Assembly (NCBI RefSeq): GCF_021117365.1
Contig: NZ_CP088262.1
Location: forward strand, 62,001-126,000
DNA: 64,000 bases
Direction of reading: 5' to 3'
Origin: Nocardioides sp. cx-173
GTDB taxonomy: Bacteria > Actinomycetota > Actinomycetes > Propionibacteriales > Nocardioidaceae
The notes below the pieces were generated by a model. The model did no database searches. It had not been told where the DNA came from and saw nothing but the letters and a program-made list of their open reading frames with translations. This document shows, piece by piece, positions 31,173 through 52,430 of the stretch; position 1 is the stretch's first letter, and each line of letters begins with the position of its first letter. Made by a program: the position numbers and the translations under genes.

Positions 31173-31202
31173 CCCGCACCCGGCGCTACACTCGGAGCCT
31201 CT

Positions 31203-31238
31203 GATGCGCATCACGAAATGAGTTGCACCATGCGCAAC
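31203..31238. promoter_or_regulatory. Putative IclR operators at metF (two tandem sites)
   Basis: Site 1 GATGCGCATCACGAAAT (31203-31219, degenerate) and site 2 GTTGCACCATGCGCAAC (31222-31238) fit GTTGCG-N5-CGCAAC with start-to-start spacing of 19 bp. They lie just downstream of a TACACT -10 (expected transcription start about 31199) and overlap the start codon, a position suited to repression. Confidence 0.7.
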
Positions 31239-32081
31239 AAACGCTCACGTGACACGGTCGTTCGGCTGCTGGAGAACGCCCGCTACGAGGTGCTGCCGAC
31301 GTCGAGCACCGAGGACAAGGTGCTCGAGCACGTCCCCCTCGACCGCGTGGTCACGGTCACCGCGTCGCCGAGCAAGGGGCTGGAGGCCACGCTCGACCTG
31401 GCCGAGCGGCTGACCGGGCGGGGGTACGCCGTCGTACCCCACCTCGCGGCGCGCATGGTCACCGGCCGCACCGAGCTGGCCGAGATCTGCGAGCGGCTCA
31501 CCGGCCAGGGGATCTCCCGGGTGTTCGTGCCGGGCGGCGACGCTGAGCCGGCCGGCGACTACCACGACGCGGTGGGGCTGCTCGAGGACCTGAGCGCCCT
31601 CGGCCGCCCGTTCGCGCAGGTCGGCATCACCGGCTACCCGGAGTCGCACCCGACCATCGCCGACGACCTGACCATCCAGGCCATGTGGGACAAGCGCCGC
31701 CACGCCACCCACGTCGTCAGCAACCTGACCTTCGACCCCGGGGTGATCCGGGGCTGGGTCGGGCGGATGCGCGCGCGCGGCATCACGATGCCGCTGCTGC
31801 TGGGCATCCCGGGGCCGGTCGAGCGCACCAAGCTGCTCGCCATGGCGACCCGGATCGGCGTCGGGGAGTCCACGCGGTTCCTCGCCAAGCACAAGGGCAC
31901 GTTCGCGCGCCTCGCCGCCCCTGGCGGCTTCACCGGCGAGCGCTTCCTCGAGCAGTGCGCCCCCGCCCTCGCCCCGCCCGAGGCAATCGTCGAGGGCCTG
32001 CACGTCTTCACCTTCAACCAGATCGCCGAGACCGAGGCCTGGCGCCAGACCCTCCTCGACCGTCTGCGGGTGGGGGTATAG
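31230..32081 (+). CDS. metF: Methylenetetrahydrofolate reductase-like protein
   Basis: About 283 residues, TIM-barrel MTHFR family: VTVTASPSKGLEATLDLAERLTGRG, VPHLAARMV, RVFVPGGDAEPAGDYHDAVGLLEDL, VGITGYPESHP and FNQIAETEAWRQ. It interconverts methylene- and methyl-tetrahydrofolate. This divergent clade often sits with corrinoid/betaine methyltransferases, where it would oxidise methyl-THF during demethylation (inference). Start ATG 31230 (MRNKRSRDT) is preferred; ATG 31218 is also in frame. It faces the corrinoid operon tail-to-tail and carries the same operator type as purU, betB and the dimethylglycine dehydrogenase gene. Confidence 0.8.
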   Translation: MRNKRSRDTVVRLLENARYEVLPTSSTEDKVLEHVPLDRVVTVTASPSKGLEATLDLAERLTGRGYAVVPHLAARMVTGRTELAEICERLTGQGISRVFVPGGDAEPAGDYHDAVGLLEDLSALGRPFAQVGITGYPESHPTIADDLTIQAMWDKRRHATHVVSNLTFDPGVIRGWVGRMRARGITMPLLLGIPGPVERTKLLAMATRIGVGESTRFLAKHKGTFARLAAPGGFTGERFLEQCAPALAPPEAIVEGLHVFTFNQIAETEAWRQTLLDRLRVGV

Positions 32082-32097: not shown

Positions 32098-32155
32098 TAG
32101 TCCCTAACGAATGTGCGACTTTCGGCCCGAAATCTCGCAGATTCGTTAGGGACTA
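32098..32155. repeat. Hairpin repeat family C, copy 1
   Basis: Perfect 15-bp outer arms TAGTCCCTAACGAAT (32098-32112) and ATTCGTTAGGGACTA (32141-32155), with inner pairs TGCGA/TCGCA and TTTCGG/CCGAAA. It lies between convergent metF and the DUF1638 gene and contains the TAA stop of the latter. A related copy is at 59283-59340. Confidence 0.88.
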
Positions 32156-32754
32156 TCCGGACCGACGACATCCGCCAGCGCGCGCTCCAGGCCGGAGTCG
32201 CCGGTGGCGAGGACGGTGAGGGGGAGGCCGAGCTGGGTCGCGGCCTGGTGGGCGAGGGCCCGGAGCTCGGGGTCGTCGGGGTGCTGGGCGAGCCAGACGG
32301 CCCGCGTGTAGTGGCCGAAGTAGGTGTCGCGCAGGTCGGGGTGGCGGTCCAGGCCGAGCTCCTGCAGGACCGTCCGCGCGAACGAGCGCACCAGGAAGTC
32401 CGTCAGCAGGTACGTCCCCGGCTGGTCGGCGAAGAGGCGCTCCACCCGCGACGGACCGGCGTACAGGTCGTAGCAGTGCAGCCCCGGCAGCCGCTCCAGC
32501 CCCTCGTCGGCACAGACCGCGTCGAGCGCGCCGTAGGTGCCGCAGTCGGCGTACCCCACCACCACCCGCTCGTACGCCGGTCGCAGCCGGGCGGCCAGGG
32601 CGCGGACCTCCCCGGCGATGAGCTGCGGCTGGTTGTGCAGCAGCGGCGGCAGCGGGTGCACGTCCACCGGCCAGCCGCGGCGGGCCACGATCGCGGCCGC
32701 GGGCTGGGCGATCGCTCCGCAGGCGATGACGGCGATGTCAGCCCTTCGAGACAC
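32146..32754 (-). CDS. DUF1638-family protein of the corrinoid operon
   Basis: About 202 residues. Conserved-looking segments IAVIACGAIAQP, VVVGYADCGTYGALDAVC and LHCYDLYAG, plus TYLLTDFLVRSF, match DUF1638, a family repeatedly encoded beside MttB-type methyltransferases and their corrinoid proteins. The Cys/His residues (ACG, DCGTYG, HCYD) could bind a metal or the corrinoid, but no activity is established. Start GTG 32754, 16 bp after the ASKHA stop; the reading to 32838 would overlap that gene by 68 bp. Last gene of the iclR-mtgC-mtgA-ASKHA operon. Confidence 0.82.
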   Translation of the reverse strand: MSRRADIAVIACGAIAQPAAAIVARRGWPVDVHPLPPLLHNQPQLIAGEVRALAARLRPAYERVVVGYADCGTYGALDAVCADEGLERLPGLHCYDLYAGPSRVERLFADQPGTYLLTDFLVRSFARTVLQELGLDRHPDLRDTYFGHYTRAVWLAQHPDDPELRALAHQAATQLGLPLTVLATGDSGLERALADVVGPDSP

Positions 32755-32770
32755 CTCGTCCCTCGGCTCC

Positions 32771-34726
32771 TCAGGAACCAAACGAGAGCTGCTCGACGAA
32801 CTTGTCGTTGAAGTCGGGGCGGTCGCTGAGCTCGACATAGGTCACCTCCTCGAGCAGCGCGGCGGCGCCGGCGCGCTCGCGCACCGACAGCAACGCCATC
32901 TTGGCACCCTCGCCGGCGACGTTGCCGGCAGCGACGATGCGCAACACCGGCAGCTTCGGCACCAGCCCGATGCGTACGGCGGAAGCGGGCGACAGGTAGC
33001 TGCCGAAGGAGCCGGCGAGCAGCACCTGCTGGACGTCGCGGTGCTCCAGGCCGAGCTGCTCGAGCAGCAGCGTCCAGCCGGTGGAGATCGCGGCCTTCGC
33101 GAACTGCAGCTCGCGCACGTCGCGCTGGGAGAGGTAGACGCACTCGGCGGGCACCGTGTCGGGCGCGGGCCGGTGCAGCACGAAGACCCGCTCCTCGCCG
33201 ATCTTGGTCAGCCGGTCGGCCAGGGTCGGCGCGATCCCCGGGGCGTCCGCGTCCGGCACGAAGCGCCCCGACGCGTCGAGCAGGCCGACGCGCACGAGCT
33301 CGGCCACGGCGTCGACGAGGCCGGACCCGCACAGGCCGCGCGGCTCGACGTCCCCGATGACGCCCAGCTCGACGTCCTCGCCCAGCCGGACGACCTCGAT
33401 CGCGCCGTCGGCCGCGCGCATGCCGCAGCGGATGGCGCCGCCCTCGAACGCCGGGCCGGCCGGCGCCGCGGTCGACAGGATGGTGTCGCCGTCGCTGAGC
33501 ACGATCTCGCAGTTGGTGCCGACGTCGATGAACAGCCGGGTGCGCTTGTCGCGGTCCATGCCGGTGGCCAGCATCCCGGCGACGATGTCGCCGCCGACGT
33601 AGGCACCGAGGGCCGGGAAGAAGAACGCGCGCGCCCGGGGGTGCAGGGTCAGGCCGATCTCGGACGCGGCGACCGTCGGCGGCTGGGTGGTGGACATGAC
33701 GAACGGCGCGACCCCGAGCGGCTCGGGGTCGATTCCGAGCACCAGCGCGGTCATGGTGGCGTTGCCGGCGACCGCGACCTCGTAGACCTGACTCGGCTCC
33801 ACGCCGCCCTCACGGCACACCTGGTCGGCGAGCTCCGACAGCGTCGCGCCGGCGGCCTCCTGGAGCCTCCCGAGCGCGTCGGGGTCCATCATCGTCGCGC
33901 TGATCCGGGTGATGACGTCCCCGCCGAACGGCTGCTGCCGGTTGAGCATGGAGGCCACCGCGACCGGCGTGCCGGTGCTGACGTCCAGCAGCGTCGCGAC
34001 GACCGTCGTGGTGCCGAGGTCGAAGGCGATCGCGTAGCGGGCGGCGGTCGTGTCGCCGGCCTCGACGTCGATCAGCGCCTCGTCGACGATCACCGCGGTG
34101 ACCTTGAAGTCGGCCTCGCGGAGCACGCTCGAGAGCCGTCGCAGGACGTGCAGGTCGGCGGTGAGCTCCAGGTCGTCGATGGCGTCGGTGAGCCGGGCCA
34201 GGTCGGTGCGCTGGTCGGACAGGGTGGCCTCGTCGAGCTCGACGTAGCGCTTCTGCAGCGCGGGGCGGAGGATCACCTGGCGCCCGACGCCGACCGTCGC
34301 GGCCTTCGGCCGGGTGGTGAGCGGGGGGACCTCGACGGCGAGCGAGCGCGTCGCCTGGACCAGGCAGGCCAGTCGCCAGCCCTCCTCGAGCTGGTCGGGC
34401 GAGAAGGTGCGCTCGTCGTACCGGGTCACCGGGACGTCCCCGCCGCCCACCCGGACCCGGCACTTGTGGCAGGTGCCGTGCCCGCCGCAGGTCGAGTCGA
34501 TGGCGATGCCGTTCCAGGACGCCGAGTCGAAGACGGTCACCCCCGGGGGGACCCGGACCCCGCGCTGCGTGGGCGCGACGTCGGCCCCCGTGTCGGTCGA
34601 GGAGTGGATCGTGAACGACAGGTCCACCCGGCCCGTGCCGTCGTGGGCGGCGGCGGGGGCGCCCGGGGCGGCGACGAGGCCCTCGCGGCCCAGCGCGCCC
34701 AGCTCGACCTCGGAGGGCTCCGTCAC
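32771..34726 (-). CDS. Corrinoid activation protein: 2Fe-2S plus ASKHA ATPase (RACo/RamA-type)
   Basis: About 651 residues. The N-terminal plant-type ferredoxin domain has Cys at about 80, 86, 89 and 121 (STCGGHGTCHKC, RLACLVQ), i.e. CX5CX2C...C as in RACo. A linker domain follows, then an ASKHA ATPase domain (AIAFDLGTTTVVATLLD, VAGNATMTALVLG, FIDVGTNCEIVLSDG, GLCGSGLVDAVAEL, VLLAGSFGSYL). Family members use ATP to drive reductive recovery of oxidised Co(II) corrinoid proteins to active Co(I). GTG start 34726 overlaps the mtgA stop (GTGA). Essential partner for a cobalamin methyltransferase working in air. Confidence 0.9.
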   Translation of the reverse strand: MTEPSEVELGALGREGLVAAPGAPAAAHDGTGRVDLSFTIHSSTDTGADVAPTQRGVRVPPGVTVFDSASWNGIAIDSTCGGHGTCHKCRVRVGGGDVPVTRYDERTFSPDQLEEGWRLACLVQATRSLAVEVPPLTTRPKAATVGVGRQVILRPALQKRYVELDEATLSDQRTDLARLTDAIDDLELTADLHVLRRLSSVLREADFKVTAVIVDEALIDVEAGDTTAARYAIAFDLGTTTVVATLLDVSTGTPVAVASMLNRQQPFGGDVITRISATMMDPDALGRLQEAAGATLSELADQVCREGGVEPSQVYEVAVAGNATMTALVLGIDPEPLGVAPFVMSTTQPPTVAASEIGLTLHPRARAFFFPALGAYVGGDIVAGMLATGMDRDKRTRLFIDVGTNCEIVLSDGDTILSTAAPAGPAFEGGAIRCGMRAADGAIEVVRLGEDVELGVIGDVEPRGLCGSGLVDAVAELVRVGLLDASGRFVPDADAPGIAPTLADRLTKIGEERVFVLHRPAPDTVPAECVYLSQRDVRELQFAKAAISTGWTLLLEQLGLEHRDVQQVLLAGSFGSYLSPASAVRIGLVPKLPVLRIVAAGNVAGEGAKMALLSVRERAGAAALLEEVTYVELSDRPDFNDKFVEQLSFGS

Positions 34727-35603
34727 GTCGCCTGCGCCGCCTGCGCGGCCTGGCGCGCCCGGTGGGCCGCGATCCAGGCCATCCCCCACTCGTCGTGGTC
34801 GAGGAAGACGTCGGCGGCCTTGACCGCCTCGACGATCTGCGGCGTGCGCGTGTCCATGATGGCGCTGGTGAGGCCCGCGGTCATCGCCATCGGCAACCAG
34901 GCGGCCCCCAGCGTGTGCCGCGCCGGCATCCCGAAGGAGGTGTTGGACGCCCCGCAGGTCATGTTGACCCCGAACTCGTCGCGGATCCGCCGCATCGTCT
35001 CCAGCGTCACCAGCGACGTGGTGGTGTCGGCCCCGATCGGCATGGCCAGCGGGTCGATCACGATGTCGGCGGCGGCGATGCCGTACTCGGTCGTCGCCAC
35101 CTCGATGATCTTGCGGGTCAGCAGGATCCGCTTCTCGGTGTCCATCGGGATCTCGTCGGAGTCGTTGGGCAGGGCGATGACCGCGGCGTCGTACTTCTTG
35201 ACCAGCGGCAGGATCTGCTCCATCCGCTCGTCCTCGGCGGTGATCGAGTTGACCAGGGCCCGACCCTGGTACGCCGCCAGCCCGGCCTCGAGCGCCTCGA
35301 CGACCGAGGAGTCGATGCAGATGGGCTTGTCGGTCAGCCCCTGCACCAGCGTGATCGCGCGGGCCAGCAGGTCCGCCTCGTCGGTCAGCGGCACGCCCAT
35401 GTTGACGTCGAGGACGTCGGCGCCGCCCTCGACCTGCGCCTTGACGTCGCGCTCGATGGCCGAGAGGTCGCCGGCGCGCAGCTGCTCCTGGAAGATCCGG
35501 CGTCCGGTGGGGTTGATCCGCTCGCCGATGAGGGTGAACCGGCGCCCGTGGCCGAGCACCACCTCCGCGCCGGCGCCGCGCAGGACGGTCTCGTGGGTGC
35601 GGG

Positions 35604-35607
<4 letters not shown>
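34723..35607 (-). CDS. mtgA: Methylcorrinoid:tetrahydrofolate methyltransferase (MtgA-like, pterin-binding)
   Basis: 294 residues, pterin-binding TIM barrel: LIGERINPTGRRIFQEQL, GADVLDVNMGVPL, PICIDSSVVEALEAGLAAY, ALVNSITAEDERM, IVIDPLAMPIGAD and MTCGASNTSFGMPAR. This is the MeTr/AcsE-MtgA pattern rather than dihydropteroate synthase. It would move the methyl group from the corrinoid protein to THF. ATG 35607 overlaps the mtgC stop (ATGA). The symbol is given by analogy to the Desulfitobacterium betaine system. Confidence 0.87.
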
Positions 35608-36271
<664 letters not shown>

Positions 36272-36275
<4 letters not shown>

Positions 36276-37039
36276 GCCACGCCCTCCTTGCGGGTTCGCC
36301 GGCGAAGCAGCGCGGAGAGCTGCTCGGCCCGGTCGTTCAACAGCCGGCCGATCTCGTCGAGCCGGTCCTCCAGCCGGGGGCTGGGCCCCGAGATGCCCAG
36401 GGCCGCGATGACCTCGCCGCCGCTGCCGCGGACCGGCGCGCCGATGCCGGTCAGCCCGATCTCGAGCTCGTCGACGGTGCTGGCCCACCCGCGCCGCGCC
36501 ACCTGGGCGAGCTCGCGGGACAGGGCCGCGGGGTCGGTGACGGTGCGCGGGGTGACCTGCTCCAGGCCGTCGCTCGGCACGTCGAGGAGGCCGTGGGCCA
36601 GCAGCACCTTGCCCAGCGAGGAGGCGTGCGCCGGGACCTCGACCTCGGTCCAGTCGCGGGTGCCGAGCATGTACGTCGAGTCGACCTGCGCCACCTGCAC
36701 CACCCGGTCGCCGCGGGCCACCGAGAGGTTGACGGTCTCCCGGGTGTCGGCGCCGATGCGCTCCAGGGTGGGCCGGGCCAGCCGGACCAGCTCGTCCCAC
36801 GGGTCGTGGCGCGTGGCATAGAGCCAGAACAACGGCCCGGCGACGTAGGAGCCCGAGGCGTTGCGCTCCAGCAGCTCCGTGCGCTCCAGGGCCGTCAGCA
36901 GCCGCGAGGTCGTGGACTTGGGCAGCCCGCACTCGTCGTGCAGCTCCAGGAACGACAGCGGCTCGTCGGCGCGTACGACGGTCGCCACGAGGAGGGCAGC
37001 GCGGTCGATCGCCTGCGTGCCGGTCGCGGTGCTCGTCAT
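36272..37039 (-). CDS. IclR-family regulator of the corrinoid methyltransferase cluster
   Basis: 255 residues. Winged HTH (AIDRAALLVATVVRADEPLS, GLPKSTTSRLLTALERTELL) and C-terminal effector domain (VAPAHASSLGKVLLAH-like segment VPAHASSLGKVLLAHGLL; DELEIGLTGIGAPV). First gene of the operon leading into mtgC, and divergent from mtgB; a 6-5-6 palindrome GTTCCA-N5-TGGAAC lies between them. Probably senses glycine betaine or a breakdown product (inference). Distinct from the second IclR protein at 39818. Confidence 0.9.
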
Positions 37040-37054
37040 CAGCCACTCTCGCTA

Positions 37055-37071
37055 GTTCCATGATGTGGAAC
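37055..37071. promoter_or_regulatory. Putative IclR operator between iclR and mtgB
   Basis: Perfect palindrome GTTCCATGATGTGGAAC. A further half-site in inverted orientation, GTCCCACATGATGA (37077-37090), follows. The likely mtgB -10 is TAGGAT at 37093-37098, so the palindrome lies next to the -35 region, fitting either activation or repression. Confidence 0.68.
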
Positions 37072-37157
37072 CGATGTCCCACATGATGAGGCTAGGATGC
37101 CGCGCAGGGTCGGGTCAAGCGACCCAGCCCGCCCGCACCCGCCGCGCAGGAGGACCG

Positions 37158-38597
37158 ATGTTCCACAACCGGATGCCCCGATACGACGTGTTGTCGCAGG
37201 AGGCCATGGCCACGCTCGACCGCGGCTGGCGCCGGCTCATGACCGAGATCGGTGTCGAGTTCATGGACGACCGGGCCCTCGAGCTGTTCCGCCAGGCCGG
37301 GCAGCGCGTCGAGGACCACACCGTCTTCCTGGACCCCGACTTCGTGCTCGCCCAGGTGGCCAAGGCGCCGCGCGAGTTCGACGTACAGGCGCGCAACCCC
37401 GCCCACAGCATCCACATCGGCGGCGACTCCATGGCCTTCGGCGCCGTCTACGGCCCGCCGTTCGTACGCCAGGGCGACGTGCGCCGCGACGCGACGATGG
37501 CCGACTTCACCGACTTCACCAAGCTCGCCCAGTCGTTCTCCGTGCTGGACTCGGCCGGGGGCATCATCTGCGAGCCCAACGACACCCCGCTCGACAGCCG
37601 CCACCTGGACATGACCTACGCGCTGCAGAGCCTCACCGACAAGGTCTACATGGGCAACGTCGTCTCGGGCGTCAACGCCCGCGACACCCTGGCCATGACC
37701 GAGATCCTCTTCGGCTCGCGCGAGGCGATCGAGGCGACGCCCGCGACGATCTCGCTGATCAACTGCAACTCCCCGCTGCGCTGGGACGACCGGATGCTCG
37801 AGGCGCAGTTCGAGTACTCCGCCGCCGGGCAGCCGGTGGTCCTCACGCCGTTCATCCTCATGGGCGCCATGTCGCCGGTGACCATCCCGGCCGCGCTCGT
37901 CCAGCAGATCGTCGAGGCCCTGTCGGGCATCGCGCTCTCGCAGCTGATCCGCCCCGGGACCCCGGTGATCTTCGGCTCGTTCCTGTCCAACATCGACATG
38001 CAGTCGGGCTCGCCGACCTTCGGCACCCCGGAGTCGGGCATCGGGCTGCTGTGCACGGGCCAGATCGCGCGCCACTTCGGGCTGCCGTTCCGCACCGGCG
38101 GCGGCCTCACCTCCTCGCAGGTCGCCGACGCGCAGGCCGGCTACGAGGCGCTCATGACGATGATGCCGACCTTCCTCGCCGGCGCCAACTGGGTCATGCA
38201 CTCCGCCGGCTGGCTCGAGGGCGGCCTGGTCGCCGGCTACGAGAAGTTCGTCGTCGACATCGAGATCCTGCAGATGATGCAGGCGGAGTTCACCCCGCTG
38301 GAGATCGACGAGGCGTCGATGGCGTTCGGCGCCCACGAGGAGGTCGGGCACGGCGGCCACTTCCTCGGCGCCGCGCACACGATGGAGCGCTTCCGCACCT
38401 GCTTCTACCGCCCCCTGCTGTCGAGCTCGGAGAACTACGAGCGCTGGATGCGCAACGGCGGCAACGACGCCAACGCCCGCGCCGAGGGCATCTACCGCAA
38501 GAAGCTCGAGGAGTACGTCGCCCCCGACCTCGACCCCGCCATCGCCCAGGAGCTGCAGGAGTACGTCATCCGCCGGCGGGCCGAGCTCGGGGACTGA
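37158..38597 (+). CDS. mtgB: MttB-superfamily methyltransferase, non-pyrrolysine (glycine betaine:corrinoid, MtgB-like)
   Basis: About 479 residues, COG5598 TIM barrel: YDVLSQEAMATLDRGWRRLM, FMDDRALELFRQAGQRVED, GAVYGPPFVRQGDVRRDATM, INCNSPLRWDDRMLEA, FGSFLSNIDMQSGSPTFGTP, FRTGGGLTSSQVADAQAGYE, ANWVMHSAGWLEGGLVAGYE and EEVGHGGHFLGAAHTM. The frame has no internal TAG, so it is the pyrrolysine-free branch, which demethylates quaternary amines (glycine betaine, proline betaine, carnitine) rather than trimethylamine. Gene context with choline oxidation and betaine import argues for glycine betaine. ATG 37158 has AGGAGG; an in-frame start at 37065 lies over the operator and is rejected. Confidence 0.88.
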   Translation: MFHNRMPRYDVLSQEAMATLDRGWRRLMTEIGVEFMDDRALELFRQAGQRVEDHTVFLDPDFVLAQVAKAPREFDVQARNPAHSIHIGGDSMAFGAVYGPPFVRQGDVRRDATMADFTDFTKLAQSFSVLDSAGGIICEPNDTPLDSRHLDMTYALQSLTDKVYMGNVVSGVNARDTLAMTEILFGSREAIEATPATISLINCNSPLRWDDRMLEAQFEYSAAGQPVVLTPFILMGAMSPVTIPAALVQQIVEALSGIALSQLIRPGTPVIFGSFLSNIDMQSGSPTFGTPESGIGLLCTGQIARHFGLPFRTGGGLTSSQVADAQAGYEALMTMMPTFLAGANWVMHSAGWLEGGLVAGYEKFVVDIEILQMMQAEFTPLEIDEASMAFGAHEEVGHGGHFLGAAHTMERFRTCFYRPLLSSSENYERWMRNGGNDANARAEGIYRKKLEEYVAPDLDPAIAQELQEYVIRRRAELGD

Positions 38598-39809: not shown

Positions 39810-39826
39810 GTCGCGCCATGCGCAAC
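39810..39826. promoter_or_regulatory. Putative IclR operator over the iclR start codon
   Basis: GTCGCGCCATGCGCAAC matches GTTGCG-N5-CGCAAC with one mismatch and covers the ATG at 39818. A -10-like TATGGT (39806-39811) lies at its left edge, so binding would block its own promoter. Confidence 0.6.
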
Positions 39827-43914: not shown

Positions 43915-44987
43915 GCGTCGCAACCGAGCACGCCGCCGAGCCCGGGACCGCCGCGGAGGAGAGCGCCCTCTCGGTGCGCCACCTCTGGAAGATCTTCGGC
44001 AAGGGCAGCAGTGCCATCATCGGCACGCCGGACGCCGACCTGTCGCGCGCCGAGCTCAAGGAGAAGACCGGCTGCGTCGTCGGCGTCAAGGACGTGTCCT
44101 TCGACGTCGCGCCCGGCGAGGTGTTCGTGGTGATGGGGCTCTCCGGCTCCGGCAAGTCGACCCTCATCCGGTGCCTGACCCGGCTGATCGAGCCCACGTC
44201 GGGGCAGACGATCATCGCCGGGCAGGACGTCAACAAGTCCTCGCCGGCCCAGCTGCGAGAGCTCCGCCGGCACCATGCCTCGATGGTCTTCCAGCACTTC
44301 GGTCTCCTGCCGCACAAGCAGGTGATCGACAACGTCGCCTACGGTCTCGAGATCCGCGGGCTGGGCAAGAAGGAGCGGCGCGCGAAGGCCGGTGAGGTGG
44401 TCGACCTGGTCGGCCTGTCCGGCTATGAGCACTCCTACCCCGACCAGCTCTCCGGCGGCATGCAGCAGCGCGTCGGCCTGGCTCGGGCGCTGGCCGGCGA
44501 CCCCTCGCTGCTGCTGTTCGACGAGCCGTTCTCGGCGCTCGACCCGCTGATCCGCCGCGACATGCAGAACGAGGTGATCCGCCTCCACCACGAGCTCGGC
44601 AAGACCATGGTCTTCATCACCCACGACCTTCAGGAGGCGCTCAAGCTCGGCGACCGGATCCTGATCCTGCGTGACGGCGAGATCGTGCAGATCGGCGCAC
44701 CGGCCGAGGTGGTCGGCGCCCCTGCCGACGACTACGTCAAGGACTTCGTCTCCGAGGTGCCCCGCTCGCACGTGCTGACTCTGAAGTGGGTGATGCGCGA
44801 CCCCCGCCCCGACGACTCCATGGAGGGCCCGGTGATGTCGTCGGACACGATCGTGCGCAAGGCCGCCCAGGCCGCCCTCGCCGCCGCACACCCGGTCCGC
44901 GTCGTCGACGGGGACCGGCTGGTCGGCATCGTCGACGACGACGCGATCCTGCGGGTGGTCGTGGCGGAGGAGGAGGCGCGATCGTGA
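43911..44987 (+). CDS. proV: Glycine betaine/choline ABC importer ATPase (ProV/OpuAA-like)
   Basis: 358 residues. LWKIFGKG opening, the ProV-specific insert before the core, Walker [22 protein letters not shown] Q-loop ([15 protein letters not shown]), signature [15 protein letters not shown], Walker [15 protein letters not shown]-loop ITHDLQEAL, and a shortened C-terminal CBS-like region ([33 protein letters not shown]) that in OpuA senses ionic strength. Overlaps betA (ATGA) and the permease gene (GTGA), so import and oxidation are produced together. Confidence 0.93.
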
Positions 44988-47047
44988 CCGCCACCCTCGC
45001 CCCGCCGGCCGCGGGCCCCCGGAGCCCGGAGCCCCCGGAGACGCGTGAGCGCCGTACGGTGCCGCGCTGGGTGTGGGCGCTGGGGGTGATCGGGCTGTGG
45101 GTCGCGGTGTGGGCCCTCACCAAGGGCCAGGACACGCTCGCCCTCGCCGGCCGCGAGAACACCGACCTGCACGACTCGCTGACCGGCTTTCGCGACGACG
45201 TGCTCGCGAACCGCGACACCAACCCGGTCATCCAGTTCACCTACGGGCTCGGGGACTGGTTCGGCGGAGTCGTCGACTGGCTCCAGCGGATGCTGTCGAT
45301 CCCCGACTTCCCGCGCCCGGTGCCCCAGGTCGGCTGGCTCGGCATCACCGCGGTCGCGGCCTGGGTCGGCCTGGCCGTCGCGGGATGGCGGATCGCCATC
45401 CTCGTGGCGTTGTCGTTCGTCTCCTTCGGGGCCTTCGGCTTCTGGTCCGACGCCATGGACTCCTTGATCGTCACCTTCGTCTCCGTCGCGGTCGTCGTCG
45501 TGGTGGGCATCCCGCTCGCGGTGCTTCTCGGGACCTCCGGCCGGGCGACCACGGCGGTCGTCACCACCATGCTCGACGTGCTGCAGACCCTGCCCGCGTT
45601 CGTCTACCTGGCACCCATCGCGCTGTTCTTCGGCATCGGTCCCTCGGCGGCGGTGATCTGCACGCTCATCTACGCGCTGCCGCCGCTCATCCGGATCGCC
45701 GGGCACGGCATCCGCACCGTCTCGTCCACGACCATCGAGGCCACCGACTCGGCCGGCCAGACCCGGTGGCAGCGGCTGACCAAGGTGCAGCTGCCCATGG
45801 CCCGTCGCACGATCGTGGTGGGCCTGAACCAGACGATCATGGCGGCGCTGTCGATGGCGACGATCGCCGCGCTGGTCAACGGCCCCGGCCTCGGCCTGCC
45901 GGTCTACCGCGCGCTGACGCGCAACGACGTGGGCGGCGCGTTCGTGCCGGGCCTGCTGATCGTGGTCATGGCCGTGATGCTCGACCGCGCCACCACGGCC
46001 GCGAGCGAGTACGGCGAGAAGACCGCGCGCGGCCGGGTGGACCTCAGGCTGCGGCGCATCGTCCTCGCGGTGGCCGGCATCGGCGCGCTGGTCGCGGTCT
46101 ACCTCTCCCGCACCTACTCCTCGCTCGCGGAGTTCCGCGAGCTGTCGTGGGGTCCCCAGCTGGCCGACGCGGTGGACCGGTTCTTCGAGTGGTTCACCGA
46201 CACCTTCCGCGACGTCACCCAGGCGTTCAAGGACGCGATCAGCTCGCTGCTGCTCAACCCGCTGCAGGCGCTGCTGTCGGAGTCGCCGTGGTGGCTCGCC
46301 GCCGCGGCCATCCTGGCGCTGGCGGTCGTCTTCGGCGGGGTCCGCGCGGTCGTGCCCACCGTGCTCTGCCTGGCGGGCCTCCTCTTCGTCGACCTGTGGC
46401 ACGACGCGATGGTCACTCTCACGATGGTGCTGGTCGGCACGCTCCTGGTGATGGTCCTTGCCGTGGTGCTCGGCGTGGCGATGGCACGCAGCCGGCGCAC
46501 CGACCTGGTGCTGCGACCCCTCCTGGACGCCGGGCAGACGATCCCGCCGTTCGTCTACCTCATCCCGGTGCTCGCGCTCTTCGGCCCGACCCGCTTCACG
46601 GCGATCGTCGCCGGTGTCGTCTACGCCGCGCCGGTCGCGATCAAGCTCGTCGCCGACGGCATCCAGGGCGTCTCGCCGACGACTCTGGAGGCGGCTCGAT
46701 CGACCGGCTCGACGACGTGGCAGGAGATCACCAAGGTCCAGCTGCCGATGGCGCGCGGCTCGCTCGTGCTGGCGGCCAACCAGGGCCTGCTCTACGTCCT
46801 CGCCATGGTCGTGATCGGCGGTCTGGTGGGCGCCGGAGCGCTCGGATACGACGTGGTGCTCGGCTTCGCCCGCTCCGAGGAGTGGGGCAAGGGGGCGGCC
46901 GGCGGCATCAGCATCGTGCTGCTCGGCATCATGCTCGACCGGATCATGCGCGGCGCTGCCGGCAAGGACCGTCCAGTCCGCGACCCTGCGCAGCCGTCCC
47001 GCTGGGCCGGCGTGCGGTGGACCGGCTCGCTTCGAGCCACCCGATAG
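44984..47047 (+). CDS. Glycine betaine ABC importer permease, tandem double-domain
   Basis: About 687 residues, roughly twice a normal ProW. Two BPD_transp_1 permease modules occur in one chain: the first with the EAA loop [20 protein letters not shown] (about 250-270), the second with [20 protein letters not shown] (about 570-590). Matching pairs [20 protein letters not shown] and [20 protein letters not shown] confirm an internal duplication. One polypeptide could therefore supply both membrane subunits. GTG 44984 overlaps the ATPase stop. The stretch before domain 2 (about 380-440) is amphipathic and rich in Phe/Asp. Confidence 0.9.
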
Positions 47048-47093: not shown

Positions 47094-48080
47094 TTGCGAC
47101 ACTCAAGGAAGCGAGTAGCAGGCCTCGTCTCGGTTGCGGCGGTGGCTGCTCTCACGCTCGCCGGCTGCGGCGAGGGGTCCATCGACGAGGAGACCAAGGA
47201 GAACGAGTCCCAGGCGGCCGAGGCCGGCGACTGCGGCGAGGTCAACATGGCGGTCAACCCCTGGGTCGGCTACGAGGCGGACGCCTACGTCGTGGGACAG
47301 ATCGCGAGCGAGCAGCTCGGCTGCAAGGTCAACTACAAGGAGCTCAAGGAGGACGTCGCCTGGCAAGGCTTCGGCACCGGCGAGGTCGACGTCGTGATCG
47401 AGGACTGGGGCCACCCGGACCTGGAGAAGAAGTTCTTCGAGGGCACCGGCGACGGCAGCGCGATGGACGGCGGCCCGACCGGCAACGTCGGGATCATCGG
47501 CTGGTACGTCCCGCCGTGGCTCGCGGAGGAGCACCCGGACATCCTCGAGTACGAGAACCTCAACAAGTACGCCAAGGACTTCGCGACCTCCGAGTCCGGA
47601 GGCAAGGGTCAGTTCCTCGGCGCCGACCCCTCCTACGTCCAGTTCGACGAGGCGATCGTGGCCAACCTCGACCTCGACTTCAAGGTCGTCTTCTCCGGCA
47701 GCGAGGCCGCCAGCATCACGGCGTTCCAGCAGGCCGAGGAGAACAAGGAGTTCCTGATCGGCTACTTCTACGAGCCGCAGTGGCTCTTCGCCGACGTCCC
47801 GCTGGCGAAGGTGGCGCTGCCGCCGTACGAGGAGGGGTGCCAGGACGACCCGGCCAAGGTCGCCTGCGACTACCCCGAGACGGAGCTGAAGAAGATCCTC
47901 TCGACCGAGTGGGTCGCCGAGGGCGGGCCGGCGGTCGAGCTGGTCCAGAACTTCCAGTGGACCAACGAGGACCAGAACCTCGTGGCCAAGTACATCTCCG
48001 ACGAGGGCCTGTCCGCCGAGGACGCGGCCGCGAAGTGGGTCGAGGAGAACCAGGACAAGGTCGACGCCTGGCTGGGCTGA
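47094..48080 (+). CDS. proX: Glycine betaine/choline-binding lipoprotein (ProX/OpuAC-like)
   Basis: 328 residues. Signal peptide with lipobox LTLAGC (Cys 25), then an OpuAC-type substrate-binding domain: VNMAVNPWVGYEADAYVVGQ, ELKEDVAWQGFGTGEVDVVI, EDWGHPDLEKKFFEG, IIGWYVPPWLAEEHP and GYFYEPQWLFADV. The several Trp/Tyr residues fit an aromatic cage for a quaternary ammonium group. Start is TTG 47094, supported by AAGGAG 6 nt upstream. Followed by a strong hairpin terminator. Confidence 0.92.
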   Translation: MRHSRKRVAGLVSVAAVAALTLAGCGEGSIDEETKENESQAAEAGDCGEVNMAVNPWVGYEADAYVVGQIASEQLGCKVNYKELKEDVAWQGFGTGEVDVVIEDWGHPDLEKKFFEGTGDGSAMDGGPTGNVGIIGWYVPPWLAEEHPDILEYENLNKYAKDFATSESGGKGQFLGADPSYVQFDEAIVANLDLDFKVVFSGSEAASITAFQQAEENKEFLIGYFYEPQWLFADVPLAKVALPPYEEGCQDDPAKVACDYPETELKKILSTEWVAEGGPAVELVQNFQWTNEDQNLVAKYISDEGLSAEDAAAKWVEENQDKVDAWLG

Positions 48081-48146: not shown

Positions 48147-48182
48147 GTTTCATATGACGCATCAGGTTGCGCATCACGCAAC
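48147..48182. promoter_or_regulatory. Putative IclR operators upstream of dimethylglycine dehydrogenase (two tandem sites)
   Basis: Site 1 GTTTCATATGACGCATC (48147-48163) and site 2 GTTGCGCATCACGCAAC (48166-48182), the second a perfect 6-5-6 palindrome; spacing 19 bp. The pair ends 20 bp before the ATG at 48203. Confidence 0.75.
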
Positions 48183-48202
48183 ACTCTGAACCGGGAGCCC
48201 TC

Positions 48203-50713
48203 ATGGTCACCGTCCCCACCTCGGCGCAGGTCGTCGTCATCGGCGCCGGCATCGTCGGCAACAGCCTCGTGCACCACCTCGCCCGGCTGGGCTGGCGCGA
48301 CATCGTGCAGCTCGACAAGGGGGCGCTGCCCAACCCCGGCGGCTCGACCGGCCACGCGTCCAACTTCATCTTCCCGGTGGACCACTCCCGGGAGATCACG
48401 GACCTGACGCTGGACTCGGTGCGGCAGTACCAGGAGATGGGCGTCTTCACGCAGTCCGGCGGCTTCGAGATCGCGCGCACCGAGGAGCGCATGGAGGAGC
48501 TGCGCCGACGGATGTCGTCGGCCAGGGCGTGGGGCATCGAGGCGGAGCTGGTCGACGCCGACTTCGTGAAGGAGAAGGTGCCGTTCATCGAGACCGACGC
48601 CATCCTCGGGGCGTTCTGGACCCCGAGCGTCGGGGTGGTCGACTCGCTGCGCGCCGGCACGATCATGCGCGAGAGCGCGCTGGCCACCGGCGCGCTGACC
48701 GTCGTACCGACGGTCGAGGTGACCGGGATGGACGTGCAGGACGGGCGCATCCGGCGAGTGCGGACCAGCGGCGGCGACATCGAGACCGAGTACGCCGTGA
48801 TCGCGGCGGGCGTGTGGAGCCCCAAGCTCGGCGACATGGCCGGGATCAGCATCCCGCTGACCCCTGCCGTGCACCAGATGATCAGCGTCGGGCCGTGCCC
48901 GCAGCTGGCCGAGCGCGAGGGCGAGATCAGCTTCCCGATCATCCGCGACATGGACACCTTCTGCTACGAGCGCCAGCACGGCGCCGACATGGAGGTCGGG
49001 TCCTACGCCCACCGCGCGATCCTGCACGAGCCGGAGGACATCCCCTCGATCGAGCAGGCCAAGCTCTCGCCGACCGAGATGCCGTTCACCTCCGACGACT
49101 TCGACCCCCAGCTCGAGCAGGCCTACGAGCTGATGCCCGAGCTGCTGGGCGCCGAGGGCGCGGAGATGCGCTATGCGATCAACGGCCTGCTTTCCCTGAC
49201 CTGCGACGGCAACCCGATCCTGGGCGAGAGCCTGGTCAAGGGCCTGTGGACCGCGTCGGCGGTGTGGATCAAGGAGGGCCCCGGCGTCGGCCGCGCGGTC
49301 GCGGAGTGGATGACCGACGGGCACTCCGAGATCGACGTCCACCACAGCGACATCGCGCGCTTCCACCCGCACCAGATGCGCCGCGAGCACACCCGGCTGC
49401 GCACGACCGAGTCGTTCATCAAGACCTACGGGATCGTCCACCCCGCCGAGCAGTACGAGTCCGACCGCGACCAGCGGGTCTCGCCGATGCACGAGTCGCA
49501 GCAGAAGCTCGGCGCCGTGTTCTTCGAGACCGCCGGCTGGGAGCGCCCGCACTGGTACGAGTCCAACGCCGGGCTGGTGGCGGAGTACGGCGCGGCCGTC
49601 ATGCCGCGCGAGCACGAGTGGGACGCGCGCTGGTGGAGCCCGATCATCAACGCCGAGCACCTGCGCATGCGCGAGGCGGCCGGGGTCATCGACCTGACGG
49701 CGTTCCAGGTCCTCGACATCGTGGGGCCCGGCGCGCTGGAGACCGTGCAGCGGACCTGCGCCGCGCAGTGCGACGTCGCGGTGGGCAAGGTCGTCTACAC
49801 CCCGGTGCTCGATGCCAAGGGCGGCTTCCTCTCCGACCTCACGGTGATGCGGCTCGGCGACGAGCACTTCCGCGTGGTCACGGGCGGCGCGCATGGCCCC
49901 GTCGACCGCAAGACGTTCGCCGACCAGCTGCCATCCGACGGCGCGACCACGCTGAGCGACGTGACCGACGAGGTGTCCACGATCGGGCTGTGGGGTCCGC
50001 GGGCACGCGACATCCTCGCCTCGCTGACCTCCGACGACCTGTCCGACGAGGGGTTCGGCTTCCTGACGTGCCGGTCGGTGCAGGTGGGCGGGACCACGGT
50101 CCTGGCCTCGCGGATCTCCTACGTCGGCGAGCTGGGCTGGGAGCTCTACGTCGACATGGGCTCGGCCGCGGAGCTGTGGGACGCGCTGCTCGAGGCCGGC
50201 GAGCCGCACGGCGCCGTGCCGGTCGGGATCGGCGTCTACGGCACCACCGGGCGCTTGGAGAAGGGCTACCGGGCCTACGGCGCCGAGCTCGACAGCGAGC
50301 GCACGATCGTCGAGGCGGGCATGCAGCGGCCCAAGGTCAAGGCGGCCGACTTCGTCGGCCGGGCGGCGTACCTGGCGCAGCGTGAGGTGCCGCCGCGGGC
50401 CGTGCTCTGCACGATGACCGTCGACGACCACACCTCGGCGTCGGGGGTGAAGCGCTACATGCTCGGCGGCGAGCCGATCCTCACCCGCCACGGCGCCACC
50501 CTGACCGACGGGCACGGGCACCACCCCTACGTCACCTCGGCCGGCTCGGCGCCGTCGCTCGGGAAGCACGTGCTGATGGCCTACCTGCCGCCGGACGTCG
50601 CCGTCGTCGGGCAGGAGCTCGCGGTCTCCTACATGGAGGAGCTCTATCCGGTCACCGTCGGCTCGGTCGACGCGACACCGCTGTTCGACCCGGCCAACGA
50701 GCGTCTGAAGTGA
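48203..50713 (+). CDS. Dimethylglycine/sarcosine dehydrogenase (FAD + GcvT domains)
   Basis: About 836 residues. N-terminal DAO-type FAD domain (VVVIGAGIVGNSLVHHLARLG, GSTGHASNFIFP with the His for covalent flavin in related enzymes, GLLSLTCDGNPILGES), an FAO_M-like middle domain, and a C-terminal aminomethyltransferase (GcvT) half (MREAAGVIDLTAFQVLDI, GPRARDILASLTSD, SYVGELGWELYV) that binds THF and captures the formaldehyde unit as methylene-THF. Downstream ETF genes overlap it, so electrons go to ETF. Dimethylglycine is the likelier substrate from the pathway; sarcosine is possible. Start ATG 48203. Confidence 0.9.
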   Translation: MVTVPTSAQVVVIGAGIVGNSLVHHLARLGWRDIVQLDKGALPNPGGSTGHASNFIFPVDHSREITDLTLDSVRQYQEMGVFTQSGGFEIARTEERMEELRRRMSSARAWGIEAELVDADFVKEKVPFIETDAILGAFWTPSVGVVDSLRAGTIMRESALATGALTVVPTVEVTGMDVQDGRIRRVRTSGGDIETEYAVIAAGVWSPKLGDMAGISIPLTPAVHQMISVGPCPQLAEREGEISFPIIRDMDTFCYERQHGADMEVGSYAHRAILHEPEDIPSIEQAKLSPTEMPFTSDDFDPQLEQAYELMPELLGAEGAEMRYAINGLLSLTCDGNPILGESLVKGLWTASAVWIKEGPGVGRAVAEWMTDGHSEIDVHHSDIARFHPHQMRREHTRLRTTESFIKTYGIVHPAEQYESDRDQRVSPMHESQQKLGAVFFETAGWERPHWYESNAGLVAEYGAAVMPREHEWDARWWSPIINAEHLRMREAAGVIDLTAFQVLDIVGPGALETVQRTCAAQCDVAVGKVVYTPVLDAKGGFLSDLTVMRLGDEHFRVVTGGAHGPVDRKTFADQLPSDGATTLSDVTDEVSTIGLWGPRARDILASLTSDDLSDEGFGFLTCRSVQVGGTTVLASRISYVGELGWELYVDMGSAAELWDALLEAGEPHGAVPVGIGVYGTTGRLEKGYRAYGAELDSERTIVEAGMQRPKVKAADFVGRAAYLAQREVPPRAVLCTMTVDDHTSASGVKRYMLGGEPILTRHGATLTDGHGHHPYVTSAGSAPSLGKHVLMAYLPPDVAVVGQELAVSYMEELYPVTVGSVDATPLFDPANERLK

Positions 50714-51459
50714 AGGTCCTGGTCTGCGTCAAGCGCGTCGTCGACTCCTCCAGCGAGGTGGTGCTGACCGACGACGCGCAGGCGGTCGACGGTCGGTACG
50801 CCGGCTTCACGATGAGCGCGCACGAGGAGTGCGCCGTCGAGCTGGCGGTCCAGGTGGCGGCCGCGACCGGCGGGAGCGCCACCGTGCTCACGCTGGGCGA
50901 CGCCGACGCGGTGGAGCAGCTGCGCGCCGCGCTGGCCGTCGGCTGCACCGAGGCGGTGCACGTGCTGGCCGACTCCTCGACGTACGGCCCGGCCGACGTG
51001 GCGCGCGAGATCGCGGCCGTCGCGGGCGACTTCGACCTGGTCCTGCTGGGCAACGACGCCGCCGACAGCGGTGACTTCCAGGTCGGCATCCGGCTGGCCT
51101 ACGAGCTGGGCCGGCCGGTGGTCAACGGGGTCACGAACGTGTCGGTGGCCGACGGGATCGTCACGGCGAGCGGCGCCGGGACCGACGGCCACGAGACCTA
51201 TCGGGTGCCGCTGCCCGCCGTCGTCACCGTGCTGGAGGGCGGGGTCGAGCCGCGCTACCCGACCGTGCCCGGTCGGATGAAGGCCAAGAAGGTGCCGATC
51301 GAGGAGCGGTCGCCCGTTGCCTCACCGGTGGGGCCGTCACGGGTGCGCCTGCTGCTGCCGCCGCCGGCGCCGTCGAACGTGCAGGTCCTCGGCAAGGGCG
51401 CCGACGCGGCGCCCGCCGTCGTCGACCTCTTCGAGCAGCTGGGGGTGCTCTCCCGATGA
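50710..51459 (+). CDS. etfB: Electron transfer flavoprotein, beta subunit
   Basis: 249 residues. KVLVCVKRVVDSSSEVVLTD opening, LLGNDAADSGDFQVGIRLAYELGRPVVN and PTVPGRMKAKKVPIEE near the C-terminus are ETF-beta features. GTG 50710 overlaps the dehydrogenase stop (GTGA) and its stop overlaps etfA (ATGA). The coupling indicates a dedicated ETF for dimethylglycine/sarcosine oxidation, passing electrons to ETF:quinone oxidoreductase (not in the window). Confidence 0.92.
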   Translation: MKVLVCVKRVVDSSSEVVLTDDAQAVDGRYAGFTMSAHEECAVELAVQVAAATGGSATVLTLGDADAVEQLRAALAVGCTEAVHVLADSSTYGPADVAREIAAVAGDFDLVLLGNDAADSGDFQVGIRLAYELGRPVVNGVTNVSVADGIVTASGAGTDGHETYRVPLPAVVTVLEGGVEPRYPTVPGRMKAKKVPIEERSPVASPVGPSRVRLLLPPPAPSNVQVLGKGADAAPAVVDLFEQLGVLSR

Positions 51460-52430
51460 TCCTGGTGCTGGTGGAGAGCACGCCCGCGGGCGAGGCGGTC
51501 GAGGTCTCGCGCGAGGCGCTCACCTTCGCGCGGTCGCTGGCCGCCGAGGGCGGCGGCGTCCCGGTCGACGCGGTGCTCGTGGGCGAGCCGTCCGCGGAGC
51601 TGGCCGCGACGCTGGCGGCGTACGGCGTGCGGAGGGTGCACGCGCTGACCGGCGAGGCGTTCGCGTCGTACGCCGGCGCGGCCTGGGCCGCCGGCGTGCA
51701 GGACGCGCGCGAGACCTCGGTGGTCGTGATGGCCGCCGGGACCCCGCGCGGCAACGAGGTGATGGCGCACGTCGCGGCCCGCGAGGGCGTGGCGATGGCG
51801 GCCAACGTGCTGTCGTTCAGCGGGCTGTCGCCGTTCGTGGTGACCCGCCAGGTCGTCGGCGGGGCCGCGCTGGAGGAGATGCGGCTCGCGGACCGGCCCG
51901 CGGTGTTCACCGTCGCCGGCCACGCCGTCGAGGCGGCGCCGGCGGACGTGCCGGGCTCCGCTGAGGTCGTGGTGCGCGCCCCGGCGGTGGCCGAGGCCGA
52001 CCTGGTCGCGCGGGTGGTGTCGAGCGAGGAGCCGGAGCCGGACCTGTCGGGCACGCTGAAGTCGGCGCGGGTGGTCGTCGGAGCCGGCCGCGGTGCGGGC
52101 AGCGCGGAGGGCTTCGCGGAGCTGGTCGAGCTGACCGAGCTGCTCGGCGGCTCGCTCGGGGTCTCGCGCGTCGTGACCTCGCTCGGCTGGCGCCCCCACC
52201 ACGAGCAGGTCGGCCAGACCGGCAGCCGGATCTCGCCGGAGCTCTACATCCCCTGCGGCATCAGCGGCGCGATTCAGCACTGGGCCGGCTGCTCCACGGC
52301 GAAGAGCATCCTGGCGATCAACACCGACCCCGAGGCCCCCATGGTGACCAAGGCGACGTACGCCGTCATCGGCGACCTGCACGAGGTCGTCCCCGCCATC
52401 AACGCCGAGATCCGCCGCCGTCACCGCTGA
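51456..52430 (+). CDS. etfA: Electron transfer flavoprotein, alpha subunit
   Basis: 324 residues. C-terminal FAD domain with RVVVGAGRGAGSAEGF, LGGSLGVSRVVTSLGW, QVGQTGSRISPELYIPCGIS, GAIQHWAGCSTAKSILAIN and PMVTKATYAVIGDLHEVVPA, the canonical ETF-alpha pattern. Start ATG 51456 in ATGA overlap with etfB. Its stop codon is inside hairpin repeat A2. Last gene of the betaine catabolic island. Confidence 0.93.
   Translation: MILVLVESTPAGEAVEVSREALTFARSLAAEGGGVPVDAVLVGEPSAELAATLAAYGVRRVHALTGEAFASYAGAAWAAGVQDARETSVVVMAAGTPRGNEVMAHVAAREGVAMAANVLSFSGLSPFVVTRQVVGGAALEEMRLADRPAVFTVAGHAVEAAPADVPGSAEVVVRAPAVAEADLVARVVSSEEPEPDLSGTLKSARVVVGAGRGAGSAEGFAELVELTELLGGSLGVSRVVTSLGWRPHHEQVGQTGSRISPELYIPCGISGAIQHWAGCSTAKSILAINTDPEAPMVTKATYAVIGDLHEVVPAINAEIRRRHR

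Follow-up and report, generated by a model that had tools for sequence, protein, structure and literature searches.

A probable choline and glycine betaine catabolic island with a corrinoid methyltransferase module in the actinomycete Nocardioides sp. cx-173

We analysed a stretch of 64,000 nucleotides from Nocardioides sp. cx-173 (contig NZ_CP088262.1, positions 62,001 to 126,000; referred to as the window, in whose numbering positions are given), which between 31218 and 52430 holds a corrinoid methyltransferase module next to genes predicted to act on choline, glycine betaine and dimethylglycine. The genome is a single contig of 4.45 Mb, 99.7% complete. Gene families were assigned by Pfam and NCBIfam scans, which recovered all the genes that a first-pass annotation had named in this interval, formyltetrahydrofolate deformylase PurU included, and additionally two IclR regulators. 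The genes mtgC, mtgA and those for a RACo-type reactivator and a DUF1638 protein run leftwards from iclR1; mtgB faces them, and the far end is occupied by a MetF-like gene. The purU gene lies after the corrinoid module and before the choline operon; the latter, the importer genes and the genes for dimethylglycine dehydrogenase and its electron transfer flavoprotein (ETF) are all directed rightwards, up to 52430. The island consists of the following genes:

31218–32081, plus strand: MetF-like methylenetetrahydrofolate reductase, 287 residues (Pfam MTHFR 28.3 bits); an operator overlaps the likely start, ATG 31230
32146–32838, minus strand: DUF1638 protein (Pfam DUF1638 72.6 bits)
32771–34789, minus strand: corrinoid reductive activator, RACo-type ASKHA with N-terminal 2Fe-2S domain (RACo_C_ter 247, Raco_middle 192, RACo_linker 82, Fer2 40 bits)
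34723–35607, minus strand: MtgA/MtgD-type methylcobalamin:tetrahydrofolate methyltransferase (Pterin_bind 103.6 bits; PRK07535 308 bits)
35604–36275, minus strand: MtgC-type corrinoid protein (B12-binding and B12-binding_2); start ATG 36275
36272–37039, minus strand: IclR-family regulator 1, iclR1 (IclR_C 110.9 bits), divergent from mtgB
37065–38597, plus strand: MtgB, non-pyrrolysine MttB family (PF06253, Pfam MTTB, 620 bits); likelier start ATG 37158
38804–39709, minus strand: PurU formyltetrahydrofolate deformylase (TIGR00655 338 bits, cut-off 286)
39818–40627, plus strand: IclR-family regulator 2, iclR2 (IclR_C 149.5 bits); start ATG 39818
40737–42206, plus strand: betaine-aldehyde dehydrogenase (Aldedh 546 bits; TIGR01804 610.7 bits, below the cut-off of 668.6)
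42217–43914, plus strand: choline dehydrogenase (TIGR01810 betA 826 bits, cut-off 732)
43911–44987, plus strand: OpuA-type ATP-binding cassette (ABC) ATPase (ABC_tran 118 bits)
44984–47047, plus strand: fused ABC permease with two BPD_transp_1 stretches (119.8 bits); start approximate
47094–48080, plus strand: OpuAC-type betaine/choline substrate-binding lipoprotein (OpuAC 116 bits)
48167–50713, plus strand: tetrahydrofolate-dependent dimethylglycine dehydrogenase (DAO, FAO_M and GCV_T in one chain); likelier start ATG 48203
50710–51459, plus strand: ETF beta, EtfB (ETF 85.8 bits), with a 4-base overlap with the dehydrogenase gene
51456–52430, plus strand: ETF alpha, EtfA (ETF_alpha 99.6 bits, ETF 88 bits), with a 4-base overlap with etfB

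Several listed starts fall within palindromes described below; better ones are 37158 for mtgB (an ATG preceded by AGGAGG), 36275 for mtgC, 39818 for iclR2 and about 48203 for dimethylglycine dehydrogenase.

The MTTB domain of MtgB spans model positions 11–500 of 500 (620 bits against a cut-off of 25), and its matches in the Protein Data Bank (PDB) are 4yyc, 2qne and 9yce. MtgB had been described as pyrrolysine-free, and the mtgB frame is indeed open throughout, with no in-frame stop or amber codon; it encodes the one MttB protein of the genome. The cobalamin motif DxHxxG of MtgC is intact (DVHDIG, within GDVHDIGKN). MtgA carries a pterin-binding domain of the methyl-tetrahydrofolate (methyl-THF):corrinoid class, with a PRK07535 score above the cut-off of 259. 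In the reactivator, the RACo middle, linker, C-terminal and 2Fe-2S domains all exceed their cut-offs; its NCBIfam scores, 422 bits as AcsV-type and 108 bits as RamA, are each below the model's own cut-off. The DUF1638 protein is 42% identical to that of the mtg locus on Sinorhizobium meliloti pSymB.

The MetF-like protein passes the Pfam MTHFR cut-off (24 bits), scores 39 of the 294 bits set for the NCBIfam equivalog, and has as its closest solved structure 7xg9, named 5,10-methylenetetrahydrofolate reductase (103 bits, E 2e-28). As seen from the alignment, it retains a Glu of the N-terminal strand and the Asp of the GGD/AGD motif, which we take to be the catalytic residues. MTHFR-family matches occur at three places in the genome: a canonical MetF (C1:1674425, 299 bits), the island protein, and a third (29 bits). 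BLAST gave no match of the MetF-like protein to its counterpart in S. meliloti or Paracoccus, whose loci encode an MTHFR plus a protein annotated as an MTHFR C-terminal-domain protein. No MetV-like neighbour of the MetF-like gene was seen within the window.

In the rightward half, the PDB matches of the substrate-binding lipoprotein are glycine betaine/proline binding proteins; its best NCBIfam match, the choline-binding model TIGR03414, reaches 49 bits, far below cut-off. The dimethylglycine dehydrogenase matches best 1pj5 (dimethylglycine oxidase, presumably the Arthrobacter enzyme; 521 bits), followed by dimethylglycine dehydrogenase entries. EtfB scores far below the cut-offs of the NCBIfam ETF models. 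No heterotetrameric sarcosine oxidase was found over cut-off in the genome (SoxB model, best 115 of 529 bits), and a second DAO–GCV_T protein encoded elsewhere in it is the sole candidate seen for acting on sarcosine.

By comparison with relatives, it is highly probable that the locus serves the breakdown of choline and glycine betaine, with MtgB, MtgC and MtgA converting betaine to dimethylglycine, which is then oxidized by a flavin dehydrogenase with its own ETF. Betaine would either be imported or be made from choline, with choline dehydrogenase and betaine-aldehyde dehydrogenase as the oxidizing enzymes. MtgB would transfer one betaine methyl group to Co(I) of MtgC, leaving dimethylglycine, and MtgA would move the methyl group from MtgC to tetrahydrofolate (THF), while the RACo-type protein, with the DUF1638 protein, would re-reduce inactive Co(II). 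The flavin dehydrogenase would pass the second methyl group, from dimethylglycine, to THF, and the electrons to its ETF. The MetF-like protein may work in reverse in Nocardioides sp. cx-173, oxidizing methyl-THF to methylene-THF, and PurU could free formate from formyl-THF formed further on.

We compared the island with those of relatives. A contig scan gave 315 relatives, of which the best 80 loci were kept, each chosen for having MtgB (loci and genomes are cited below by L and G numbers); since only the best were kept, the set leans to close relatives, and the scan may exclude records very close to the window's own. Among these 80, the nearest named matches of MtgB are in a Nocardioides metagenome-assembled genome (MAG; L124, 95% identity over residues 85–510) and in Pimelobacter and Nocardioides isolates (L062, L066, L067 and L069, 91%). 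Gene content was counted in the 57 loci of at least 19 kb, calling genes at an identity of at least 50% (60% for dimethylglycine dehydrogenase). The DUF1638 protein, the RACo-type reactivator, MtgA, MtgC and MtgB occur together in 57/57, the MetF-like gene in 55/57 (it is missing from L135 and L139) and PurU in 43/57. At least one of betaine-aldehyde dehydrogenase, choline dehydrogenase and dimethylglycine dehydrogenase lies within 10 kb in 54/57, the exceptions being L082, L135 and L138. The layout of the island is thus not due to chance, since the core is complete in every one of these loci and the MetF-like gene is present in all but two.

To this we added a survey of 198 genomes around that of the window, its own included, taken to represent the family Nocardioidaceae, with thresholds of E 1e-20 for MtgB, 1e-230 for dimethylglycine dehydrogenase and 1e-60 for GbcA-like proteins. 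MtgB was found in 65 genomes (the best match in every one being at least 77% identical), dimethylglycine dehydrogenase in 67, and both in 62 (Fisher p 2e-41, uncorrected for kinship). A shuffle inside each genus, which takes out differences between genera and leaves within-genus kinship in place, gave on average 33.7 and never more than 43 joint occurrences in 20000 draws, against the 62 observed. The two genes share a contig in 51/62 genomes, at most 34 kb apart; in the other 11 they are on separate contigs of drafts. The three genomes with MtgB only (G304, G326 and G367) are drafts, 81–85% complete. Five have the dehydrogenase only (G303, G316, G317, G325 and G450), and G303, G317 and G325 among them encode a GbcA-like protein, the marker of the Rieske oxygenase route. 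GbcB was dropped as a marker of that route and GbcA used, because by E-value related ferredoxin reductases made 196/198 genomes positive for GbcB. GbcA-like proteins are encoded in 17/198 genomes, 10 of which also have dimethylglycine dehydrogenase; the matches score 302–442 bits, never reaching the curated cut-off of 670, and are for this reason called GbcA-like.

In Nocardioides limicola, genes for GbcA-like (442 bits) and GbcB-like (349 bits) proteins, both below cut-off, adjoin the corrinoid cluster (L068:997-4836), so that oxygenase and B12 routes appear to lie side by side; a glutathione-independent formaldehyde dehydrogenase (691 bits, above cut-off) is encoded beside the cluster, and dimethylglycine dehydrogenase–EtfBA on its other side. 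In Pseudonocardia bannensis (L138), mtgB is directly followed by genes for a dimethylglycine oxidase-like protein (37% identical), SoxB (630 bits) and SoxA (1202 bits), both Sox proteins above cut-off.

These associations bear on the possibility that MtgB acts on another quaternary amine, such as carnitine, proline betaine or choline, with the choline genes as mere neighbours. MttB-family members do vary in substrate: Eubacterium limosum is reported to have 42 non-pyrrolysine members, of which two characterised ones, 53% identical, differ in substrate (available text of PMC8604678). We built two MtgB trees, the first of 51 rows and the second of 27 picked from these by hand, minus the most distant rows; the E. 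limosum enzymes were left out. In both, the MtgB of the window groups with those of other actinomycetes, away from the S. meliloti pSymB, Paracoccus and Azoarcus clade, whose members are placed among further sequences from the phylum of the window. The letters of 4yyc are identical to S. meliloti pSymB MtgB over the about 60 residues compared. Assigning the substrate by homology was dropped, there being no characterised enzyme within the window's clade. Both one ancestral betaine activity and a separate recruitment of MtgB are possible, because the root of the tree is not fixed. A Jatrophihabitans MAG (L123:17605-20485) encodes, beside a weakly SoxB-like flavin adenine dinucleotide (FAD) protein, a second MttB-family protein, 56% identical to that of the window, which possibly acts on another methylated amine. 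Although the separate clade and this second copy next to a different FAD protein speak for another substrate, we regard it as improbable: MtgB is present in 62/67 genomes with dimethylglycine dehydrogenase, three of the other five have the betaine oxygenase GbcA, the cluster adjoins GbcAB-like genes in N. limicola, and mtgB precedes dimethylglycine oxidase-like and sarcosine oxidase genes in P. bannensis.

Other MttB-family proteins were noted along the way. G208, of the same phylum, has five MttB-family places (L003 and four others), 43–69% identical to the MtgB of the window. On S. meliloti pSymA (L171:6124-18091), another MttB protein has for neighbours a betaine ABC transporter and an FAD protein that resembles dimethylglycine dehydrogenase (30% identical).

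The whole genome was then searched for the usual aerobic betaine routes, which the first-pass annotation had not seen beside the island. Neither a Ring_hydroxyl_A domain (positive in 4/14 control genomes) nor a GbcA-like protein at E 1e-60 was found that would point to the GbcAB route, and no stand-alone BHMT. The single S-methyl_trans domain of the genome lies within a 1373-residue frame, which we infer to be MetH; by the same search the MtgE homocysteine module is absent. This matters for the possibility that the module chiefly feeds methyl groups to methionine instead of serving betaine breakdown. A split MtgCDE is reported to make methionine in Ruegeria and Phaeobacter (available text of PMC12478193), and five Intrasporangiaceae loci, L119 (2823-3701), L122, L126, L127 and L130, have in the cluster, after the MetF-like gene, an extra homocysteine methyltransferase-like gene. 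The L119 protein shares 42% identity with the S. meliloti bmt product, and it is possible that the extra gene is an MtgE joining betaine methyl groups to methionine. In contrast, the window has no such gene, the sole homocysteine methyltransferase domain of the genome belongs to the presumed MetH, and the island is tied to dimethylglycine dehydrogenase and PurU, all of which leaves a chiefly methionine-forming role very improbable here. Neither CobN (5/14 controls positive) nor CbiC (7/14) was found in the genome; given that these two markers are missing, de novo corrin synthesis is probably lacking and cobalamin imported.

The island contains operator-like palindromes:

31222–31238, no strand: GTTGCACCATGCGCAAC, 1 mismatch to GTTGCG-N5-CGCAAC, over the start of the MetF-like gene
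37055–37071, no strand: GTTCCATGATGTGGAAC, 0 mismatches to GTTCCA-N5-TGGAAC, in the iclR1–mtgB intergenic region
39810–39826, no strand: GTCGCGCCATGCGCAAC, 1 mismatch to GTTGCG-N5-CGCAAC, between purU and iclR2, where it overlaps the iclR2 start (ATG 39818)
40698–40714, no strand: GTTGCGGCATACGCAAC, perfect, before the betaine-aldehyde dehydrogenase operon
48166–48182, no strand: GTTGCGCATCACGCAAC, perfect, before dimethylglycine dehydrogenase

The motif GTTGCG-N5-CGCAAC was first spotted by eye before the betaine-aldehyde and dimethylglycine dehydrogenase genes of the window and counted afterwards. The window has four such sites with at most one mismatch (31222, 39810, 40698 and 48166), all of them at island genes. 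At the same stringency, the 80 loci (1,494,177 bases) have 178 sites, 167 of which lie at -60 to +250 bases from an island gene start (16 genes considered); starts in relatives were extrapolated from tblastn matches, and we estimate that by area alone about one quarter of random sites would fall in these zones. Shuffled half-sites (24 sets) gave 0–52 sites and at most 12 locus–gene pairs at starts. Sites were found at the gene for betaine-aldehyde dehydrogenase in 44 of the 54 loci that have it, for dimethylglycine dehydrogenase in 19/24, for IclR2 in 32/66, for the MTHFR protein in 30/61, for PurU in 26/54, for the OpuA ATPase in 7/53 and for the substrate-binding protein in 1/26. None was found in the 80 loci at the starts of the DUF1638, RACo, MtgA, MtgC, IclR1, MtgB, choline dehydrogenase, permease or EtfB genes. 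The 11 sites off island starts comprise seven at the start of a BCCT gene (in L062 the best score of this gene is as a betaine transporter, 578 of 650 bits), one that precedes an L-serine ammonia-lyase gene, one at a second MTHFR-like match in L132, with which no NCBIfam model agrees, and two with no open reading frame called nearby.

The mtgB–iclR1 region has a palindrome of its own, GTTCCA-N5-TGGAAC, seen when the intergenic regions of the window and of 29 of the 80 loci were aligned; allowing one mismatch, it occurs 62 times in the 80 loci, each time assigned to the iclR1 or mtgB start. Totals at two mismatches were discarded as evidence because, against 340 hits for GTTGCG-N5-CGCAAC, eight other half-site pairs gave 46–293; it is the one-mismatch count and the position that discriminate. 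Genes for choline and dimethylglycine oxidation, PurU and IclR2, the MetF-like protein and some importer components thus probably form one regulon, with IclR2, whose own start is overlapped by the palindrome, as its likeliest regulator.

The serine ammonia-lyase site is at L100:2998-3014, with one mismatch; a serine ammonia-lyase also belongs to the proteins whose levels rise in Ruegeria on betaine (available text of PMC12478193).

The corrinoid genes might also be a horizontally acquired relic, or serve in anoxic micro-niches only. Nocardioides are aerobes, and corrinoid Co(I) is in general sensitive to oxygen. Presence is patchy as well, at 24/72 genomes of the genus. Against a relic, the core is complete in 57/57 loci and the operators are conserved. 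Stops occur in 13 of the 65 best family matches to MtgB, yet 12 of these 13 still have an open frame of at least 480 codons, which is consistent with stops located upstream of the likely start; the exception, G410, has 466 codons and one TAA. With a related system functioning in aerobically grown Ruegeria (available text of PMC12478193), a relic or purely anoxic role seems most unlikely.

Several observations weigh against the betaine reading of the island. The cut-offs of the NCBIfam MtgC models are not reached by the corrinoid protein (NF047996, MtgC_2, the best, 191 of 370 bits; NF047995, 151 of 310). MtgB shares 44–47% identity with the enzymes of S. meliloti pSymB, Paracoccus and Azoarcus, and a forced joint clade with these was rejected (approximately unbiased (AU) test, p 2e-67, for a group named after the first tree had been seen); lying outside the proteobacterial clade at this identity, MtgB does not have its substrate fixed by sequence alone. 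The operator of the mtgB–iclR1 region differs from the choline/dimethylglycine one, and within the corrinoid cluster the shared palindrome stands only at the MetF-like gene, in about half of the loci at one mismatch, much as for PurU. In the window alone, at two mismatches, seven palindromes were seen against 5.8 expected, no commoner than by chance, and the operator counts cover MtgB-bearing loci only, all chosen for MtgB. Within the family, 7/65 MtgB genomes carry GbcA too and 123/198 genomes have neither. Mutual exclusion of MtgB and GbcA was accordingly rejected: the seven genomes with both are about the chance number (p 0.43), and the two are neither exclusive nor linked.

Gene families, gene order, co-occurrence and operators are direct readings of the sequence; the substrate of MtgB, the direction of flux and activity under oxygen are inferred. 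The pathway proposed in the first-pass annotation is upheld by the co-occurrence of MtgB and dimethylglycine dehydrogenase (62/65 and 62/67), by GbcA in three of the five exceptions, by the shared operators and by the failure to find GbcA or a stand-alone BHMT in the genome. The island itself is real and conserved, and it very likely encodes an aerobic corrinoid betaine pathway. The chances are about even for a broader proposal: that Nocardioidaceae and several other actinomycete families break down betaine aerobically with a separate, possibly independently recruited MttB branch that mostly replaces GbcAB; that the cofactor is imported in the organism of the window, where the two corrin-ring markers are missing; and that the genes for choline and dimethylglycine use, import, PurU and methyl-THF oxidation are a single regulon under IclR control.

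What did not hold is that an oxygen-compatible cobalamin route joining the two strategies would be new, because aerobic MtgBCD, MetF2, RamA and DUF1638 with the oxidative steps have been published for Ruegeria (Mausz et al., PNAS 2025; PMC12478193). According to the available text of that paper, aerobic R. pomeroyi mutants show a need for MtgC and MtgD for growth on betaine; two MttB-family (MtgB-type) proteins, MetF2, RamA, the DUF1638 protein and the oxidative dimethylglycine and sarcosine steps rise on betaine in proteomics; and the same aerobic route is proposed for S. meliloti, whose locus is re-read accordingly. Genomes with MetH and MtgBCD are there typically Hyphomicrobiales, SAR324 and certain Alphaproteobacteria, and the classification of 5% of ocean mtgC reads as Actinomycetota is the single mention of that phylum in this text. 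In the open-access literature, which leaves most subscription papers outside, it is the only paper found to join mtgB and Actinomycetota; none of the titles and abstract openings among the matches listed covers the route in an actinomycete, Nocardioides included. New here is the actinobacterial variant: its MtgB forms a separate clade, its MetF-like protein is of another type, MetH is kept, the operators are of IclR type, and cobalamin auxotrophy is probable.

If this is true, corrinoid betaine demethylation in air is not confined to marine proteobacteria; in this one family MtgB is about four times as common as GbcA-like proteins (65 against 17 of 198 genomes). Vitamin B12 would then be one more factor that governs how choline and betaine turn over in soil, and the organisms concerned may rely on their neighbours for it. 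The operators offer a quick route to the full regulon and would allow the signal sensed by each IclR protein to be tested.

Immediately left of the island, an M13-family metallopeptidase is encoded at 28635-30674. At 54581-56677, one frame encodes a RecQ-like helicase with a C-terminal phosphoribosyltransferase match just below the curated cut-off.

Compared with known systems, the island would achieve the same net step, betaine to dimethylglycine, as the Rieske betaine monooxygenase GbcAB, which was not found in the genome. The dimethylglycine enzyme shares the DAO and GCV_T architecture of the Arthrobacter dimethylglycine oxidase 1pj5, its closest solved relative; 1pj5 is named an oxidase, whereas the gene of the window overlaps dedicated EtfBA genes, which suggests a dehydrogenase. 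With MtgBC–MtgA of the anaerobe Desulfitobacterium hafniense the island shares the three-protein logic and THF as acceptor (as given in the available text of PMC12478193) and a homologous MtgB (2qne/9yce); it differs in that the NCBIfam MtgC models are not reached, the lineage is taken as aerobic, and oxidative dimethylglycine breakdown is coupled. The cmu pathway of Methylobacterium extorquens CM4, an older aerobic corrinoid–THF–MetF2–PurU route for chloromethane, is alike in its corrinoid-to-THF methyl transfer and in its dedicated MetF2 and PurU, and unlike in CmuA, a two-domain methyltransferase/corrinoid protein acting on chloromethane (available text of PMC3621897). The closest likeness is to MtgBCD(E) of Ruegeria and S. 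meliloti, with an MttB-family MtgB, a stand-alone corrinoid protein, a pterin methyltransferase, an ASKHA reactivator, a DUF1638 protein and a second MetF, and in Ruegeria with dimethylglycine and sarcosine oxidized afterwards (available text of PMC12478193). In Paracoccus methylovorus, from soil, and on S. meliloti pSymB, the reactivator, MtgA, MTHFR, DUF1638 and MtgC genes face mtgB. The island of the window differs from these systems in its separate MtgB clade, its other type of MetF-like protein, MetH kept with no MtgE, its IclR regulators and palindromes, and the packing of its genes in one island.

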